Shown: piece after piece, positions 35,886 to 53,688 of the stretch | Layout of the letters: each line of letters starts with the position of its first letter | Position numbering within the stretch: position 1 is the first letter of the stretch | Source: Candidatus Methanosphaera massiliense | Lineage (GTDB): Archaea > Methanobacteriota > Methanobacteria > Methanobacteriales > Methanobacteriaceae | NCBI RefSeq assembly: GCF_028890305.1 | Contig: NZ_JARBXM010000001.1 | Span: forward strand, 1,158,501-1,222,500 | Direction of reading: 5' to 3' | DNA: 64,000 bases | Translations under genes and position numbers: made by a program | Notes under the pieces: model-generated | Told to the model about the DNA's origin: nothing | The model's database searches: none | The model's input: only the letters and a program-made list of their open reading frames with translations

Positions 35886-36137
35886 TCATATATAGTAACT
35901 GATTATTCAATAATCACTCACTTCAACTCACCCCCTAAACCCTTTTTTTCATATAACCTTCTTAATTTTATAATAAAGCATTCTATACAAGCTCTCTTTT
36001 CATGATAAAATTTAACAAGTATTTTTGATATTATTTAAAAATCACTAGATAATATTATAAATATCTTTTAATAAACCTAATACTTGATTAATTAATTCTT
36101 AATATCCATATGACAATAATATGGATATACATAGTTA

Positions 36138-42839: not shown

Positions 42840-43664
42840 ATGGTAAATCCAAACAAAAAAGTAAAAAGACCCGATGGATTAGGTAAAATCTACAGATACA
42901 AGACAGATGAAGATAATAAAATATTAACATTACCTATAAAACAATTACTAAAAGATAACTATATTTACATATACAGAGCAGTAAACAATGAAAACTTCTA
43001 CATTAATCCAGAGGATTCATGCTTCTTTTTTAAGGAGATATTATATGACAATGAAGTAGTAGGCTTTGCAGCATACAGGGGAAGTGACATAAATAATCAA
43101 TCACTTGTAATGCAATACATATATATCTTACCAGAATACAGGGGAAACGGATTACTGATAGAAGAAATAGATGAAGCATCAACATTATTTGAATCTAGCA
43201 TTCTCATAGAATATCCAAATAAATACATTGTAAATTCATTATTAAAACATAAAATGGCAAGAGTATTAAATGACAGATATGTAGTATCAAGAATTCCATT
43301 TATTGTACCGATGATGTCTCTAGAAGATGCAACTAGTGGTATTGTAAGGGAAGATTATGACATGACCGATAAAAAAGGATACAGTAAATTATCATTGATT
43401 TATGATTTAGATTTATGTGCAGTAGTAGGACTAGCATCAACTGATGCTGAAAACATGTTTGATGAAGATAAAGTTACAGAAGAAGATGACTTAAACAACT
43501 ATAACACAATGAGCCTACCATTAAAAATAGATAATGATAAATTTGACTGCATAAACAAAAGAAGTAACGACCCTCTAATAAATAATGGAACATACTTTGA
43601 TGAAGTTCGTAAAATAATAGATGATAAAAACGATGTTATACAGAACTGGTTAACCATTTTATAA
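42840..43664 (+). CDS. GNAT-like acetyltransferase domain protein
   Basis: A 274-residue protein. Residues about 40-135 form a GNAT-like fold with FAAYRGSDINNQSLVMQYIY and the cofactor loop LPEYRGNGLLIEEI. The C-terminal 130 residues (after SRIPFIVPMMSLEDATSG) are acidic and not recognised. The substrate is unknown. A GGGAGAC site precedes the ATG. Confidence 0.68.
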   Translation: MVNPNKKVKRPDGLGKIYRYKTDEDNKILTLPIKQLLKDNYIYIYRAVNNENFYINPEDSCFFFKEILYDNEVVGFAAYRGSDINNQSLVMQYIYILPEYRGNGLLIEEIDEASTLFESSILIEYPNKYIVNSLLKHKMARVLNDRYVVSRIPFIVPMMSLEDATSGIVREDYDMTDKKGYSKLSLIYDLDLCAVVGLASTDAENMFDEDKVTEEDDLNNYNTMSLPLKIDNDKFDCINKRSNDPLINNGTYFDEVRKIIDDKNDVIQNWLTIL

Positions 43665-43726: not shown

Positions 43727-44485
43727 ATGATAATATATTTTACAAGCACAGGTAACTGTGAATATGTATCAAAAAGAATAGCAGAACGTACGCATGACTA
43801 CACAGTATCAATGATAGAAAGTAATAAAAATAAGCAATTTGAATTTCACTTAGAAAAACAAGAACCATTAGGTATAGTAATACCAACATATTTCTGGGGA
43901 CTACCAACATTTGTAGAAGACTATATGTCACAAATAAAAATAACATCTGAAAACAATAATCCATACATATACATAATAACAACCTATGGAACAACACCTG
44001 GCTACTCAGCAGGATATCTAGAAGAATATATTACAGATATAAACCTAGAAGTATCATTTAAAGCTAGTGTAAAAATGCCTGATGACTGGACAGTACGCTT
44101 TGATTTATCAGATCCTGAAAAAATCAGCAAACAAATACTAGAAGCGGACAAACAAATCAATAACATTATTCCACGAATAGTAAATAAGGAATCAGGAAAC
44201 TATGTAAAACGTGAAATACCACGATTTATATCAAATATGGCAAGAGGTCCCTATGATAAAGGCAGAAAAACAAGTCACTTGCATGTTGAAAATAACTGCA
44301 CTGGATGTGGTATATGTGCTAATAACTGTCCAATAGATGCAATTGAATTAATAGATAATAGGCCACATTGGAAAACAGAGTATTGTGTGATGTGTTTACG
44401 TTGTTTACATCATTGTCCTACCTTTTCTATTCAATATGATAATAAAACACAAAATCATGGACAATATATACATCCAAAGATATAA
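43727..44485 (+). CDS. EFR1-family flavodoxin-ferredoxin fusion
   Basis: A 252-residue fusion. The N-terminal flavodoxin domain (about 1-150) starts MIIYFTSTGNCEYVSKRIAE with the FMN loop STGNC. The C-terminal part carries two 4Fe-4S groups, CTGCGICANNCP and CVMCLRCLHHCP (about 199-235). It would shuttle electrons between flavin and clusters. GGTGA lies ahead of the ATG. It precedes the macrodomain gene by 185 bases. Confidence 0.9.
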   Translation: MIIYFTSTGNCEYVSKRIAERTHDYTVSMIESNKNKQFEFHLEKQEPLGIVIPTYFWGLPTFVEDYMSQIKITSENNNPYIYIITTYGTTPGYSAGYLEEYITDINLEVSFKASVKMPDDWTVRFDLSDPEKISKQILEADKQINNIIPRIVNKESGNYVKREIPRFISNMARGPYDKGRKTSHLHVENNCTGCGICANNCPIDAIELIDNRPHWKTEYCVMCLRCLHHCPTFSIQYDNKTQNHGQYIHPKI

Positions 44486-44670
44486 TGATCTTCCGTTCAT
44501 AATATATCCCCTCCCATTTTCACTACTTTTTATACTATTTCTTTTTATATGTAACTAAAAAGTAACTCTTTACTTTAATAACTACTAACATATAACGTTA
44601 ATAATAAATAAGAATATACGAAGTTTGCAATGATAACATAATTAAAATATTAAAAGGAGGGAGCTAGTAA

Positions 44671-45468
44671 ATGGATACAATAGATTATCTAATAGATTAC
44701 CTTTTAAAGGAAAATCCTAAAATAAGAGTTACTCATAATCCTGAAAATGATGAGGAAAAATTCAGATTATATCGTAGTTTATGTAATATAAGACAACCTA
44801 ATCCTATAAATGAAAAATACTTAGAAAAAGAAGATGAATTACTGAGTAAAATAACAGAAAATAAGAATCTAACAGATTACAGGAATATACAATTATTAGA
44901 GGACAGGATACCAGAAAACAATGTTAATAATGATGATATTATAGCTATATGGAAGGGTGATATCACATCAATAAAAGTTGGAGCAATAGTTAATGCTGCT
45001 AATTCACAGGGACTGGGATGTTTTTCTCCATGTCATAATTGTATAGATAATCAGATACATACATATGCAGGCGTATCATTGAGATTAGAATGTAATAAAA
45101 TAATGAAAGATAGGGATTATAATTTACCTACTGGTGAAGCATTTATTACTAAGGCATATAATCTACCAGCAGATTATGTGATTCATACTGTAGGACCAAT
45201 ACTAAGAGATAAAGTATATGATGAACAAATACAGCAGTTATCTGATTGTTATACAAATTCATTACGTTTAGCTCAGGAAAATAATATTAGAAGTATATCT
45301 ATTCCTTGTATCTCTACAGGAGTATTTAGATTTCCTGCAGATTTAGCATCACAGGTTGCATTGAAAGCTGTGGATGACTACTTAGATACTAATAATGATG
45401 CATTTGATAAGGTAATATTTAATTTATATAATGATAAGGATGTGAATGTATATGAAAGAACTATTTGA
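44671..45468 (+). CDS. Zinc-type macrodomain, protein-ADP-ribose hydrolase (SirTM-linked)
   Basis: Removes ADP-ribose from protein, opposing the sirtuin encoded next. The 265-residue product has an N-terminal helical extension (1-85), then the macro fold: IWKGDITSIKVGAIVNAANS (93-112), and the zinc motif GCFSPCHNCIDNQIH with C117, H122 and C124. IHTVGP (171-176) and the STGVFRFP loop (215-222) follow. This Cys/His set defines the zinc-dependent macrodomains found beside class-M sirtuins. A strong AAAGGAGGG site precedes the ATG. The 3' end overlaps the sirtuin gene by 23 bases. Confidence 0.9.
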   Translation: MDTIDYLIDYLLKENPKIRVTHNPENDEEKFRLYRSLCNIRQPNPINEKYLEKEDELLSKITENKNLTDYRNIQLLEDRIPENNVNNDDIIAIWKGDITSIKVGAIVNAANSQGLGCFSPCHNCIDNQIHTYAGVSLRLECNKIMKDRDYNLPTGEAFITKAYNLPADYVIHTVGPILRDKVYDEQIQQLSDCYTNSLRLAQENNIRSISIPCISTGVFRFPADLASQVALKAVDDYLDTNNDAFDKVIFNLYNDKDVNVYERTI

Positions 45469-46360
45469 GCGTATTAATCAATTACAGAACTTATTAGGAG
45501 AATCTGATTATGTGATAATCGGTGGTGGTGCTGGTTTATCAACAGCAGCTGGCATAGATTATGGTGGTGAAAGATTTACAAGTAACTTTAAGGAATTTAT
45601 TGAAAAATATAATTTCACAGACATGTATACTGCTGGTTTTTATCCATTCAAATCACAGGAGGAGAAATGGGCTTACTGGGCTAAGCATGTATATATGAAT
45701 AATGTAGGTATGGGTTCTACTGAGTTGTATAAGAAGTTATATGATCTTGTAAAAGATAAAAATTATTTTGTTATAACTACAAATGTTGATGATCAATTTG
45801 TTAAGTCAGGCTTTGATGATGAAAAGGTTTTTGCAACACAGGGAAGTTACAGACTCATACAATGTAAGAATGCTTGTCATGATAAATTATACGATGATAC
45901 AGAAATTGTTAAAGAAATGATGGCTATTACTGATTCAGAATTAAAGATTCCCTCTGATTTAGTTCCAAAGTGTCCAGTCTGTGGTAAAGATATGGAATTA
46001 AACTTGCGTATAGATAATAACTTTGTAGAGGATGAAACATGGCAAAAACATAATAATGATTATCGTGATTTTGTGAATAATGCAAAGAAGGGTAAAACAC
46101 TATTATTAGAGTTTGGTGTAGGATTTAATACGCCTGCAATAATAAGATTTCCATTTGAATCAATTGCAGCACAGTATGATGACTGGAATCTTGTCAGATT
46201 TAATAAGGATAATCTGGAATTAGTTGTTGTTCAGAATAATCAAGCTAGTTTACTACCAGTTTCAAAGTTGGATGATATTAAGTTATCTAATAATTTTCAG
46301 GATAGATATATTCCATTTTCAGAAGATATTGAATTAGTTATAGATGAATTATTATCTTAA
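45446..46360 (+). CDS. Class-M sirtuin (SirTM), protein ADP-ribosyltransferase
   Basis: Uses NAD to ADP-ribosylate proteins; in bacterial pathogens the known target is lipoylated GcvH-L. The 304 residues contain GGGAGLSTAAG (26-36), TTNVDDQF (111-118) and TQGSY (131-135). In TQGSY the catalytic histidine of deacetylating sirtuins is replaced by Q132, the SirTM hallmark. C140, C144, C176 and C179 form a likely zinc site. It overlaps the macrodomain gene, so the two are translated together. No gcvH, lplA or lipoate gene is visible nearby, so the target here is unknown. Confidence 0.9.
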   Translation: MYMKELFERINQLQNLLGESDYVIIGGGAGLSTAAGIDYGGERFTSNFKEFIEKYNFTDMYTAGFYPFKSQEEKWAYWAKHVYMNNVGMGSTELYKKLYDLVKDKNYFVITTNVDDQFVKSGFDDEKVFATQGSYRLIQCKNACHDKLYDDTEIVKEMMAITDSELKIPSDLVPKCPVCGKDMELNLRIDNNFVEDETWQKHNNDYRDFVNNAKKGKTLLLEFGVGFNTPAIIRFPFESIAAQYDDWNLVRFNKDNLELVVVQNNQASLLPVSKLDDIKLSNNFQDRYIPFSEDIELVIDELLS

Positions 46361-46549: not shown

Positions 46550-46618
46550 TATTATAAACATAACATTTGTTTAGATTATTTTTTGTAAAATACAATTTAA
46601 TCAAGAGGTATGATTAAT

Positions 46619-47164
46619 ATGTCTGTATATGATTACGAAGTAAAAGATGATAAAGGAGAATTAGTATCCTTAAAGAAATATGAAGGTAAGGTTTTATTAA
46701 TTGTTAATTCTGCAACAGAATGCGGATTTACTCCTCAGTATAACGAACTAACAAGCATATATAATGAATTTAAGGATGATGGATTTGTAATTCTTGATTT
46801 CCCATGTAATCAATTTGGAGGTCAAGCACCTGGTACGACTGCTGAAATTAAGGAAACATGCAGACTTAAATTTTTAGTAGAATATCCTATATTTGATAAA
46901 ATAGAAGTAAATGGAGATAATGAGATTCCATTATACACTTATCTTAAACAGGAAAAGGGTTTTGAAGGCTTTGATGAAGAACATGAATTAACACCTATTA
47001 TTAAGGATATTGTTAGTAAGATAGACCCTGATTATGAAAATAATAGTGATATTAAATGGAATTTCACTAAGTTTTTAATAGACAGGGAAGGTAATGTTGT
47101 TAAAAGATTTGAGCCTACTAAGGATTTAAAAGTTGTAAAAAGTGAGATAAAAGAGTTATTATAA
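46619..47164 (+). CDS. Glutathione peroxidase-family thiol peroxidase
   Basis: A 181-residue peroxidase reducing hydroperoxides, most likely with thioredoxin-type donors since methanogens lack glutathione. C35 in NSATECGFTPQ is the peroxidatic cysteine (cysteine, not selenocysteine). C63 lies in DFPCNQFGGQ and C81 in ETCRLKF. The tryptophan-asparagine pair appears in KWNFTKFL. ATG 46619 is preferred over ATG 46610 because the AGAGG site ends one base ahead of the latter. It overlaps the flavodoxin gene by one base. Confidence 0.9.
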   Translation: MSVYDYEVKDDKGELVSLKKYEGKVLLIVNSATECGFTPQYNELTSIYNEFKDDGFVILDFPCNQFGGQAPGTTAEIKETCRLKFLVEYPIFDKIEVNGDNEIPLYTYLKQEKGFEGFDEEHELTPIIKDIVSKIDPDYENNSDIKWNFTKFLIDREGNVVKRFEPTKDLKVVKSEIKELL

Positions 47165-47571
47165 TGAATGTTGCAATTAGATATTATTCAAAATCGGGGC
47201 ATACTGAAACATTAGCTAATGCTATCTCAGAGGAGATGGACGTTCCAGCTAAACCTATATCTGAGGGTCTCGATGAGGATGTGGATGTTTTATTTTTAGG
47301 TAGTAGTATTTATGGTAATTCTATTGATCCGGCAGTTGTTGAATTTTTCAATAACCTTGATGTAAATATTGGCTGTATTGTGAGTTTCAGTACTGCGGGT
47401 ATTATGGAATCTACTTATGATCAGATTAAAGAATTAACCGACTTATTTGACATTAAGTTATCCCTTGATGAATTTCATTGTCCTGGTGAATTTGCTGGTA
47501 TTAATGCGGGCAGACCTAACAAGGATGATGTTGAGGATGTTAAGGCTTTTGTCAAAGGTTTGTTTGATTAA
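47164..47571 (+). CDS. Flavodoxin-like protein
   Basis: A 135-residue flavodoxin-fold protein with the FMN phosphate loop YYSKSGHTET at residues 7-16 and the GSSIYGNSIDP ring loop near residue 50. It starts on the last base of the peroxidase stop codon, so the two are coupled. It may deliver electrons to the peroxidase pathway. The partner is inferred only from gene order. Confidence 0.85.
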   Translation: MNVAIRYYSKSGHTETLANAISEEMDVPAKPISEGLDEDVDVLFLGSSIYGNSIDPAVVEFFNNLDVNIGCIVSFSTAGIMESTYDQIKELTDLFDIKLSLDEFHCPGEFAGINAGRPNKDDVEDVKAFVKGLFD

Positions 47572-49704: not shown

Positions 49705-50565
49705 ATGACTTTAAAGACGAGCCCCTTTGTTAAATGGGCTGGTGGCAAAAAACAGTTACTTAGTAAACTAAAAGAAAGAATGCCTAACTCCTACCTTAAT
49801 TATTATGAACCTTTCATTGGTGGTGGAGCTTTATTATTTGATGTACAACCAGAACATGCTGTTATTAATGATACAAATAGTCAATTATTAAATTGTTATA
49901 GACAACTTAAAAATAACTATAATAATGTTATTAATGAAGTAAAACTGCTTGACTCAGTATCTTGTGATAAAGAGAGATATTATATTATAAGAGATAAGTA
50001 TAACAAGAAAATATTAGATAACCAATTAGATGCTGAATGTGCAGCACTTATGATTTGGATTAATAAACATTGTTTTAATGGATTATACAGAGTTAATAAG
50101 AAAGGATTGTTTAATGTACCTTATAATAATAAAGTAAATGGTCCATCAATAAATGAAGATAATTTGAGAGATATAGGACTTTATTTAAATAATTATAATG
50201 TGGATATACGAGAAGGTGATTTTGAGGATGCATGTGTTGATGTTAAAAAGGATGATTTTGTATATTTTGACTCACCATATGTACCTGTAACAGAAACAGC
50301 AAATTTCACAGATTATACTAAAGATGGATTCACTTATGAAGACCATGTACGTTTATCTAAGTTATATAAAAAATTAGATAAAAAAGGTGCAAAAATAATG
50401 TTAAGTAACAATGATGTACCATTAGTATATGAATTATATGGTGAATTTAACATAGATAGATTCAACGTAAGACGTGCAATTAATAGAAATGCTAATAAAC
50501 GTAAGGGCAAAGAAGTAATTATCACAAATTATAGTGGGAATAGTTTAGACACATGGTTTAATTAA
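49705..50565 (+). CDS. dam: DNA adenine methylase (Dam/DpnM type, GATC)
   Basis: N6-adenine methyltransferase of the D12 class, protecting GATC from the adjacent nuclease. The 286 residues have SPFVKWAGGKKQLLSKL (motif X and binding of S-adenosylmethionine), YYEPFIGGGALLF (motif I), and catalytic motif IV as D189-S-P-Y192 followed by VPVTETANFTDYTKDGF. The usual residue here is proline (DPPY); serine is a variant. ITNY is at the end. The GATC specificity is inferred from the DpnII-like neighbour. Confidence 0.9.
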   Translation: MTLKTSPFVKWAGGKKQLLSKLKERMPNSYLNYYEPFIGGGALLFDVQPEHAVINDTNSQLLNCYRQLKNNYNNVINEVKLLDSVSCDKERYYIIRDKYNKKILDNQLDAECAALMIWINKHCFNGLYRVNKKGLFNVPYNNKVNGPSINEDNLRDIGLYLNNYNVDIREGDFEDACVDVKKDDFVYFDSPYVPVTETANFTDYTKDGFTYEDHVRLSKLYKKLDKKGAKIMLSNNDVPLVYELYGEFNIDRFNVRRAINRNANKRKGKEVIITNYSGNSLDTWFN

Positions 50566-50677
50566 AAGAATTAACATAAATTTCTATAAAAATACAAAAA
50601 GAATAATTAGAGGTTAAATAAATATTATGTAGAAATATGTTCAACTGTTAAAAATATTAACATAAGAGGAATAATAT

Positions 50678-51523
50678 ATGAGGGACTTTGATAAATGGTT
50701 TAATGAAATGAGATATAGCATAAATCAATACAACTATTATGTGAATTTTGAAAAAGTCTATGAAAATATAGAAAAATTAAAAATAGAACTTAACATCATG
50801 AATTCATTGATAGGTTCTAATAATATTAAACAAGATATGACAGATTTATTTGAAAAATATCCTGAAATATTAAAATGTATACCTATCTTACTAGCAGTTC
50901 GTAAAAAAGAAATATATGTTAGAGATGAAGAGGGTGAATTTAATTTTAATTTTGAATCTAGGAATTACTCTATAGAACAATACATTTATTTCATGGAAAA
51001 AACAGGATTAGTAGACTTGATAGAAAACCATATTGTCAATAACCTCATAGACTACTGTTTAGGCGTGGAAACAGGATTAGACAGTAATGGACGTAAGAAC
51101 AGGGGAGGACACCAAATGGAAAATTTGGTAGAATCATACATAAAAAAAACGGGCTTAGAATACTATAAAGAGATGTATCTCAGAGATATTGAATCAAAGT
51201 GGAATATGGACTTATCTCAAATATCTGCAGGAGGAACATCGTCAAAAAGATGGGATTTTGTAGTGAAAACAGAAAATAATATCTACGTTATAGAAACAAA
51301 TTTTTATACAAGTGGTGGTTCTAAACTAAATGAAACAGCACGAAGTTATAAAATGATATCAAGGGAATCAAAAGATATACCAAACTTTGAATTTGTATGG
51401 GTAACCGATGGAGCAGGATGGAAAGGTGCAAGAGGGAACTTAGAAGAAACGTTCAATGAAATGGAACATTTATATAATATTACAGATCTGGAAAAAGGAA
51501 TATTTACTGAGGTGTTTAAATAA
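50678..51523 (+). CDS. Type II restriction endonuclease, DpnII/MboI family
   Basis: A 281-residue nuclease matching the DpnII family. It has the conserved block GLDSNGRKNRGG (133-144) with QMENLVESYI, SAGGTSSKRWDFVV (D193) and VIETNFYTSGGSKL (E206), giving a PD-(D/E)xK-like site, and the terminal WVTDGAGW. It would cut unmethylated GATC. It lies 112 bases downstream of the methylase, forming a complete type II pair. The ATG follows AGAGGAA. Confidence 0.9.
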   Translation: MRDFDKWFNEMRYSINQYNYYVNFEKVYENIEKLKIELNIMNSLIGSNNIKQDMTDLFEKYPEILKCIPILLAVRKKEIYVRDEEGEFNFNFESRNYSIEQYIYFMEKTGLVDLIENHIVNNLIDYCLGVETGLDSNGRKNRGGHQMENLVESYIKKTGLEYYKEMYLRDIESKWNMDLSQISAGGTSSKRWDFVVKTENNIYVIETNFYTSGGSKLNETARSYKMISRESKDIPNFEFVWVTDGAGWKGARGNLEETFNEMEHLYNITDLEKGIFTEVFK

Positions 51524-51905: not shown

Positions 51906-52757
51906 ATGACTGATAATAATCATTTCTCTAATATAAGACGTTACAAGAAATTAATTCAAGTAAAAAATGCTTCGTTATTTTCATTGATTGTTCTTGATTT
52001 AATTTTTATAGTCATGCATTTTACAATGAATTTAAATCAACAAGCAGTTAGATTTATGACATTGTTTGATTATTTCACATGTCTTTGTCTATTGTTAGAT
52101 ATGATATTTGATTATTATAGGTCTGATGAAGATTTAAAAACTTTTATAAAAAATAATTATCTAGAAATTATTGCTATGCTACCGATTAATGTCAGTTTTA
52201 TAAGATTTTTTGCAGTGTTTAGATTATTAAGAATATTACATATTTATCGGAAGGTACGACATGTATCAAATAATATGGATGATGATTTAACTGGCCGAGA
52301 TTTTATTAAAGAAAATATATTAATAATCACAAGTATATTTACTGTAGTATACATGATTGGCTTATCAATTTCCTTTAGATACTTTGATTCAAGTATTAAT
52401 AATGTATTTGATGCTCTCTGGTTTAATATAGTAACTATTTCCACTGTGGGTTATGGTGATGTTGTACCACTACATTTAGCTGGTAAGTTAACAACAGTTT
52501 TAACAGTAATTGTTGGTTCATTTTTTGTTTCAATATTTACTGCTTATTTATCAGCTTTGTATAATGATAAACCTGAATCTGAGCGTAGAGAACTACTTAA
52601 GAAAGATATGAAAGAATTAAATTTACATGATAATGATCTTCAAACTGATGTGGATAAACTGGATAAGAATATTAGTAGATTAGAAAAGAATGTTAATGAT
52701 TTAGAGGATAGTATGGATAATATTATTACTATTCTTAAAAAACAACAGAAAAAATAA
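51906..52757 (+). CDS. Voltage-sensor type potassium channel, copy 1
   Basis: A 283-residue ion channel. Four sensor-domain segments (about 22-42, 50-70, 80-96, 98-120) are followed by a pore domain: inner helices at about 137-158 and 193-218 around the filter T180-V-G-Y-G-D185. S4 carries R100, R106, R109, R115 and R118 spaced like a voltage sensor. The last 50 residues form a heptad-rich coiled coil (about 235-283) for tetramer assembly. It is followed 25 bases later by a paralogue. Confidence 0.92.
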   Translation: MTDNNHFSNIRRYKKLIQVKNASLFSLIVLDLIFIVMHFTMNLNQQAVRFMTLFDYFTCLCLLLDMIFDYYRSDEDLKTFIKNNYLEIIAMLPINVSFIRFFAVFRLLRILHIYRKVRHVSNNMDDDLTGRDFIKENILIITSIFTVVYMIGLSISFRYFDSSINNVFDALWFNIVTISTVGYGDVVPLHLAGKLTTVLTVIVGSFFVSIFTAYLSALYNDKPESERRELLKKDMKELNLHDNDLQTDVDKLDKNISRLEKNVNDLEDSMDNIITILKKQQKK

Positions 52758-52782
52758 TTATTGTATATGGTAGGCTATACTA

Positions 52783-53688
52783 ATGAAATTAAAATCATAT
52801 GAGTTTAAGGTATCAGAGGATACACGTTTATTATTAAGTGAACTTAAGGATATTTTCTTAGTATTACTTACATTAATAGATTTTTTATTTATATTTATAA
52901 TAACATTCTTTAATGTTTCAGTTAATGTATTATATTTCATGTCGATTTTTGACTTGATGGTGTGTTTTTTATTATTTTTAAACTTAGTATCTATCTACAT
53001 GAATTCAACAAAATCATTATGGGAATTTGTAAAGACTCATATTATTGATATTATATCGATAATTCCTTTTAATTTCATATTCCTAAGATATTTTGCTGTT
53101 TTCAGGGTAATTAAATTGCTTAGATTATTACAGGTAGTTCAGTTAACTAAAGTAGTTACTCTTAGAAATATTCATCTGGGAGCATTAAAGTATTTTATAC
53201 AGAATAGATTATTAAAGGTATTGGCTGTTATAATTGTATTTTATGTTATCTTATCATCAGTTATATTATCTCAGATTGACCCAGCATTTACGTCAATATT
53301 TGATTCCTTTTGGTATAATATTGTTACATTAACTGGTGTTGGATATGGGGATATTACTCCAATTTCATATCCTGGAAAGATAATGGGTATTTTCACAATT
53401 ATTATGGGAGTATTATTCATTAGTATTTTCACTGCAGCAATGTCTGCACTCTATATGGAGAAGCCGGAGGAAGAAACTAGACGTACAATGAAGGTGTATA
53501 TTAAGCAGTTAAAGGGAAGAAATAGGATTCTTCAGAATCAAGTGGATAAATTAGATCAAGATATTTCCGATTTACATGTTAAATTAGATGTTATAACTCA
53601 GTTACTTGAGGAACATCTGGAAAAAGAGGAAATAGAGGATGCATTGAATAAGGCAGAGGTGGAATCAGATGAAACCAGAAGAAGTTAG
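52783..53688 (+). CDS. Voltage-sensor type potassium channel, copy 2
   Basis: A 301-residue paralogue of the upstream channel with the same layout. S1 is about 24-44, S2 50-70, S4 about 100-120 (R102, R108, K111, R114), and the pore helices are about 145-163 and 200-222. The filter is G185-V-G-Y-G-D190, with glycine replacing the usual threonine at the first position. A C-terminal coiled coil covers about 236-285. Its end overlaps the next gene by 20 bases. Confidence 0.91.
   Translation: MKLKSYEFKVSEDTRLLLSELKDIFLVLLTLIDFLFIFIITFFNVSVNVLYFMSIFDLMVCFLLFLNLVSIYMNSTKSLWEFVKTHIIDIISIIPFNFIFLRYFAVFRVIKLLRLLQVVQLTKVVTLRNIHLGALKYFIQNRLLKVLAVIIVFYVILSSVILSQIDPAFTSIFDSFWYNIVTLTGVGYGDITPISYPGKIMGIFTIIMGVLFISIFTAAMSALYMEKPEEETRRTMKVYIKQLKGRNRILQNQVDKLDQDISDLHVKLDVITQLLEEHLEKEEIEDALNKAEVESDETRRS

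Follow-up and report, generated by a model that had tools for sequence, protein, structure and literature searches.

Two overlapping genes of Candidatus Methanosphaera massiliense encode a zinc-dependent macrodomain (Zn-Macro) and a class-M sirtuin (SirTM). We propose, with a probability of roughly 0.8, that they are a minimal example of the published SirTM/Zn-Macro systems: a switch for reversible mono-ADP-ribosylation whose target is a protein other than a lipoylated GcvH-like carrier, and which probably serves a response to oxidants or electrophiles. This reading is based on matches to solved and assayed proteins, conserved catalytic and zinc residues, the lack of matches to the lipoylation genes searched for, and the HxlR regulators found beside related pairs. 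In the proposed mechanism, stress would raise expression of the pair, SirTM would spend NAD+ to ADP-ribosylate an acidic residue of that target, and Zn-Macro would reverse the modification. The switch would probably serve the response to oxidants or thiol-reactive electrophiles, and in Methanosphaera the pair's own regulator would not be situated beside it. We infer the enzymatic activity, target and inducer of this particular pair; the chemistry is likely, by analogy with relatives whose activity has been measured.

Layout of the macrodomain and sirtuin genes

The window, meaning the whole 64,000-nucleotide stretch that was analysed, spans positions 1158501-1222500 of contig C1 in a host genome of 1.786 Mb on two contigs. 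Both reading frames of the pair (44671-45468 and 45446-46360) were found where the first-pass annotation had placed them. The features of the locus are as follows.

42840..43664, + strand: GNAT-like protein (PF00583, 26.1 bits, cut-off 20.7; its L040 relative matches no family)
43727..44485, + strand: EFR1-type flavodoxin-ferredoxin fusion (NF038196, 230 bits, cut-off 75)
44655..44661, + strand: Shine-Dalgarno-like AGGAGGG ahead of the macrodomain gene (from the sequence)
44671..45468, + strand: Zn-dependent macrodomain (predicted ADP-ribose hydrolase, eraser), 265 aa (PRK04143, MorMacro 8rsi match, conservation)
45436..45444, + strand: Shine-Dalgarno-like AAGGATGTG within the macrodomain gene, 7 bases 5' of the sirtuin ATG at 45452 (from the sequence)
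45446..46360, + strand: class-M sirtuin (SirTM, predicted writer), 304 aa from the first ATG (SpySirTM 5a3a match, PF02146, alignments)
46610..47164, + strand: glutathione-peroxidase-family thiol peroxidase (PF00255, E 3.9e-40)
47164..47571, + strand: short flavodoxin-like protein (weak flavodoxin matches below cut-offs)

The sirtuin frame holds a second in-frame ATG at 45452, for which the ribosome site AAGGATGTG is better spaced than for the first ATG, and three of seven aligned sirtuin relatives start at that column (with starts chosen by the ORF script). Because of this spacing and these relatives, 45452 is more likely to be the true start, which would make the overlap 17 bases. The overlap had originally been put at 23 bases; the genes do overlap, but that figure needs the first ATG. 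Residue Q132, numbered here from the first ATG, becomes Q130 if the sirtuin starts at 45452. The overlap suggests that eraser and writer are co-translated. The macrodomain gene came first in all 63 adjacent archaeal gene pairs (some loci counted twice). The two domains also match those of the fungal Mfs1 macrodomain-sirtuin fusions (8RSN), but here they are encoded by two overlapping genes and are not fused.

Both proteins belong to the SirTM/Zn-Macro class

The hallmarks of class M are QG instead of HG and a genetic linkage with a macrodomain gene; in bacteria the two genes form either a stand-alone pair or part of an extended operon (PMC4518038, accessible text). The linkage is present here in the overlap of the two genes. 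The sirtuin ORF scored 25.9 bits against PF02146, just above the cut-off of 24, and gave the only match to that family in the host genome. Its closest solved structure is SpySirTM (5a3a, E 4.5e-51). Sequence alignment to this structure placed Q132-G133 on its QG, so that glutamine occupies the position at which a catalytic histidine would have contradicted the class-M assignment made earlier from the glutamine. N113 and R188 likewise aligned with 5a3a, and all of these residues were invariant in 20 aligned sequences. By chain spacing (offset 10), N113, Q132 and R188 would be equivalent to Asn118, Gln137 and Arg192 of SpySirTM. Zinc-ribbon-like cysteines are located at C140, C144, C176 and C179. 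Q132 was retained in 61 of 67 archaeal SirTM ORFs, the exceptions being two fragments and four tandem paralogues with Asn.

These paralogues were found in genus g9 (loci L043, L049, L052 and L056), where a second tandem sirtuin carries A29E, G30Y, Q132N and R188T. This copy is probably inactive, judging from its substitutions, and may be a pseudoenzyme. In the same genus a nicotinamide-phosphoribosyltransferase-like gene (family checked for L051 only) was observed 3' of the sirtuin, directly in L043, L049 and L051 and three genes on in L057; in L043 and L049 it comes after the second sirtuin copy. Such a neighbour fits a nicotinamide-releasing enzyme.

The macrodomain ORF matched PF01661 (E 5.7e-38) and the NCBIfam model PRK04143, 'protein-ADP-ribose hydrolase' (302 bits, cut-off 272). 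Its closest solved structure is MorMacro of Methanobrevibacter oralis (8rsi, E 2.9e-63). The Zn-loop Cx4HxC, which replaces the glycine-rich catalytic loop in Zn-Macro proteins, was present as C117-x4-H122-x-C124, together with the NAAN motif (108-111) and the catalytic Asp (D126). C117, H122, C124 and D126 were each conserved in 57 of 58 archaeal macrodomain ORFs, the remaining row being a contig-end fragment. About 90 residues precede the macro core and residues 3-263 align with 8rsi, indicating by alignment the N-terminal extension (three-helix bundle) of Zn-Macro proteins. The zinc macrodomain with C117, H122 and C124 described in the first reading of this DNA is thus supported by the family model, the MorMacro match and residue conservation.

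An alternative is that the substrate is a small molecule or a nucleic acid, the sirtuin being mainly an NAD+ glycohydrolase or a maker of an ADP-ribosyl metabolite and the macrodomain clearing the product. Apart from regulators and redox enzymes, no single protein accompanied the pair throughout the archaeal lineages examined, and an NAD-recycling gene adjoins some pairs. Against this, SpySirTM is a protein ADP-ribosyltransferase (PMC4518038, accessible text) and MorMacro removes ADP-ribose from protein Glu/Asp (PMC11490716, accessible text). We consider this alternative unlikely and favour a protein target.

Lipoylation genes and the probable target

The first-pass annotation had seen no GcvH-like gene or lipoate ligase gene within 15 kb of the pair and proposed a search of the genome for gcvH and lplA. 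That search extends the absence to the whole genome. The LplA family PF21948 gave no match in the genome-wide profile search, and GcvH gave none above its cut-off, the single sub-cut-off match lying inside a 568-aa frame. This frame holds a strong PF00364 domain, the sole match to that family in the host genome, and its product reads as a biotin-type carboxylase subunit. A lipoyl-like motif scan of short frames returned six matches by a rough regular expression rather than a profile, none of them recognised as GcvH. Among 18 pair-bearing methanogens spanning four genera, GcvH matches were found in six (three above cut-off), all in frames of 568-597 aa, and LplA matches in four (one above cut-off), in frames of 307-317 aa. 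By their length and family kinship these are presumably biotin enzymes and biotin ligase.

The structures of MorMacro come from an archaeal minimal operon, and the Zn-Macro tree has an archaeal branch; MorMacro was active on PARP1 E988Q and failed on GcvH-L (PMC11490716, accessible text). The host genome yields no GcvH or LplA above cut-off, and GcvH-L is not processed by the archaeal Zn-Macro described in print, which makes a non-lipoyl target the most plausible reading, as had been supposed at the outset. It is very improbable that a lipoyl or biotinyl carrier, here the 568-aa protein, is nonetheless the target: no other biotin-lipoyl domain (PF00364) turned up in the genome and this protein has a weak GcvH score, but it is encoded about 1 Mb from the pair with no genomic link seen, and the failure of MorMacro on GcvH-L also argues against it. 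Methanogens without lipoylation genes offer a clean background for finding a non-lipoyl target.

A methanogen pair without a lipoyl partner had been framed as new, but the 'minimal operon' pair of M. oralis is already published (8RSI/8RSJ/8RSK; PMC11490716, accessible text), and the window's pair is a newcomer at the level of the genus. The two share the same two gene families, a methanogen host and an operon with no GcvH-L. They differ in genus, and the window's pair is flanked by the EFR1 gene and the peroxidase and flavodoxin genes. The extended GcvH-L/Zn-Macro/SirTM/LplA2 operon of Staphylococcaceae and Lactobacillales (PMC4518038, accessible text) has the same writer and eraser families, Gln for His and Cx4HxC. 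In contrast, no GcvH-L, LplA2, luciferase-like or OYE gene adjoins the window's pair, and neither GcvH-L nor LplA2 was found in its neighbourhood.

Distribution of the pair

Of 150 genomes searched in the order, 75 had SirTM matches, and these lie in 4 of 19 genera. No match was found in 9 of 20 Methanosphaera genomes, G126 among them, so the genus can do without the pair. One or more of these absences are false: the G118 contig (L195) breaks off within the macrodomain gene, and fragmentary genomes therefore overstate how often the pair is missing.

A quick SirTM tree combined 30 of the 61 archaeal stretches, the window among them, with 70 rows drawn from 74 bacterial loci, leaving out ORFs shorter than 200 aa and six named archaeal loci. 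It did not recover the archaea as one clade; the archaeal rows were scattered among the bacterial ones (five label changes in 103 rows). Once six divergent archaeal rows and 38 of the 70 bacterial rows had been removed, archaeal monophyly could not be rejected (p-AU 0.199), and we therefore claim no number of transfers.

HxlR/DUF24 regulators beside related pairs

Neighbouring genes were clustered for 60 archaeal stretches, drawn from 57 of the 75 SirTM-positive genomes, and for 80 loci of named genomes. The latter are the best 80 of at least 592 confirmed stretches matching the archaeal sirtuins, and thus near relatives rather than a random sample. Of the 74 bacterial loci in this best 80 of at least 592, an all-frame profile scan showed 38 to have an HxlR/DUF24-type regulator no more than 6 kb from the pair, one broken by a stop (L097) and one cut by a contig end (L135). 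The scan profile was built from the neighbours themselves; in a Pfam check of 36 of the 38 regulators, all 36 matched PF01638. In archaea, 35 of 49 fetched non-Methanosphaera stretches had an HxlR gene within 2 kb (27/31 in g10, 5/15 in g9 and 3/3 in g6), and in 26 of the 27 from g10 it was less than 400 bases from the pair. The archaeal stretches are not independent, as a single gene order prevails in most of g10.

For 64 bacterial loci the chance expectation was 0.47, calculated from the genomes' HxlR counts on the assumption of random placement and ignoring kinship among genomes, compared to 28 observed by ORF clustering and 34 by the profile scan. The 64 comprise 14 genomes chosen with a leaning to HxlR-positive loci and 50 of the remaining 60; 34 of the 38 profile-scan loci fall among them. 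The lower count reflects a greedy ORF choice that missed regulators hidden by antisense ORFs. Where a genome had exactly one HxlR gene, ORF clustering found one in the 4-13 kb locus in 17 of 31 cases.

By a loose regular expression that counted a few loci twice, the N-terminal place held a cysteine in 41 of 42 HxlR hits from archaea and 37 of 40 from bacteria. HypR, YodB and CatR sense HOCl, quinones and diamide through N-terminal cysteines (PMC6943732, accessible text), while B. subtilis HxlR requires Cys11 and Lys13 (PMC7835342, accessible text). Formaldehyde was rejected as the signal: the neighbours carry CPV- or CPI-type motifs with no Lys two places on, which fits electrophile or disulfide sensing better. 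The sole Cys-x-Lys match (CRKE) came from a frame upstream of the L131 gene, and the L131 regulator itself has CPIR. Because an HxlR gene recurs beside the pair and its product mostly has this cysteine, it points to a concrete candidate class of inducer.

No HxlR gene was found in the 11 fetched Methanosphaera-type loci (ten from g1 and L036 from the g9 bin) or beside the window's pair between window positions 36000 and 56000, so the inducer reading rests on relatives. L036 (G022:C61) has the gene order and spacing of Methanosphaera L037, with a sequence that is not identical, and its contig is possibly misbinned. We tentatively suggest, at somewhat less than even odds, that minimal pairs of gut archaea and bacteria are triggered by thiol or electrophile stress through HxlR/DUF24 cysteine sensors and act on a non-lipoylated target, and that the Methanosphaera pair has been relocated to a peroxidase-flavodoxin cluster and no longer has its sensor nearby.

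As far as we searched, the association of related pairs with HxlR is not generally described: no statement of a general link was found in the literature searched, most subscription papers lying outside it. A single-organism operon is already in print. In Bifidobacterium thermophilum, the HxlR-family gene D805_1658 stands with the operon D805_1659-1660 (NADH-flavin reductase, macro domain), which was raised in co-culture with another bacterium (PMC4797131, accessible text). This resembles the HxlR gene beside a macrodomain gene in relatives of the window's pair; however, the window's pair has no HxlR neighbour, and the accessible text of PMC4797131 names neither a sirtuin there nor the type of macro domain. 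A Treponema denticola mutant showed raised expression of both HxlR-like TDE_0814 and a Sir2-family gene (PMC7586716, accessible text). The accessible text of PMC12710355 mentions the Staphylococcus sirTM operon without an HxlR link.

Other repeated neighbours were PNPOx-like (13/76), Rrf2 (12/76) and DUF1848 (10/76; e.g. L109, L132, L135, L114) genes, counted over loci with a sirtuin ORF among the best 80 of at least 592 and each cluster named from one member. DUF5131 genes occurred near the pair in 3/76 of the same loci (e.g. L161).

The Methanosphaera neighbourhood

The usual order in Methanosphaera is alpha/beta hydrolase, GNAT-like gene, EFR1 gene (in some), macrodomain, sirtuin, peroxidase and flavodoxin, with other genes intervening in some species. 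Six Methanosphaera loci kept the GNAT-like gene with no pair beside it. In five of these (L196, L197, L198, L199 and L200) a peroxidase and/or flavodoxin gene follows the GNAT-like gene by less than 400 bases, and in L194 a flavodoxin is located elsewhere in the stretch. The pair therefore acts like a cassette that a single site may either have or lack. The GNAT-like gene was matched in 19 of 20 Methanosphaera genomes (weakly in G128); with these matches and the six loci, it was rejected as an obligate partner or target.

The first-pass annotation had linked the pair to oxidative stress through its redox neighbours. These are weak evidence, because the same genes occur without the pair in five loci. 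The link to thiol or electrophile stress is independently supported by HxlR in relatives, not by the window's own neighbours.

A DpnII-type restriction-modification pair (D12 methyltransferase and DpnII endonuclease) lies downstream of the redox genes at window positions 49705-51523. With the cassette-like behaviour at one place, it could hint at an anti-phage or toxin-antitoxin-like module in which the sirtuin would be toxic or use up NAD and the macrodomain would counteract it, but we regard this as highly unlikely: neither protein had a hit among 5027 PADLOC defence models, the catalytic residues match SirTM, the association with HxlR speaks for stress regulation, and the two restriction-gene clusters were confined to the window and L034 (same species) among the clustered archaeal loci.

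Further downstream (window 51906-53688), two adjoining, related ion-channel-like proteins (Ion_trans_2) are encoded, and relatives of these share this neighbourhood in several other Methanosphaera loci.
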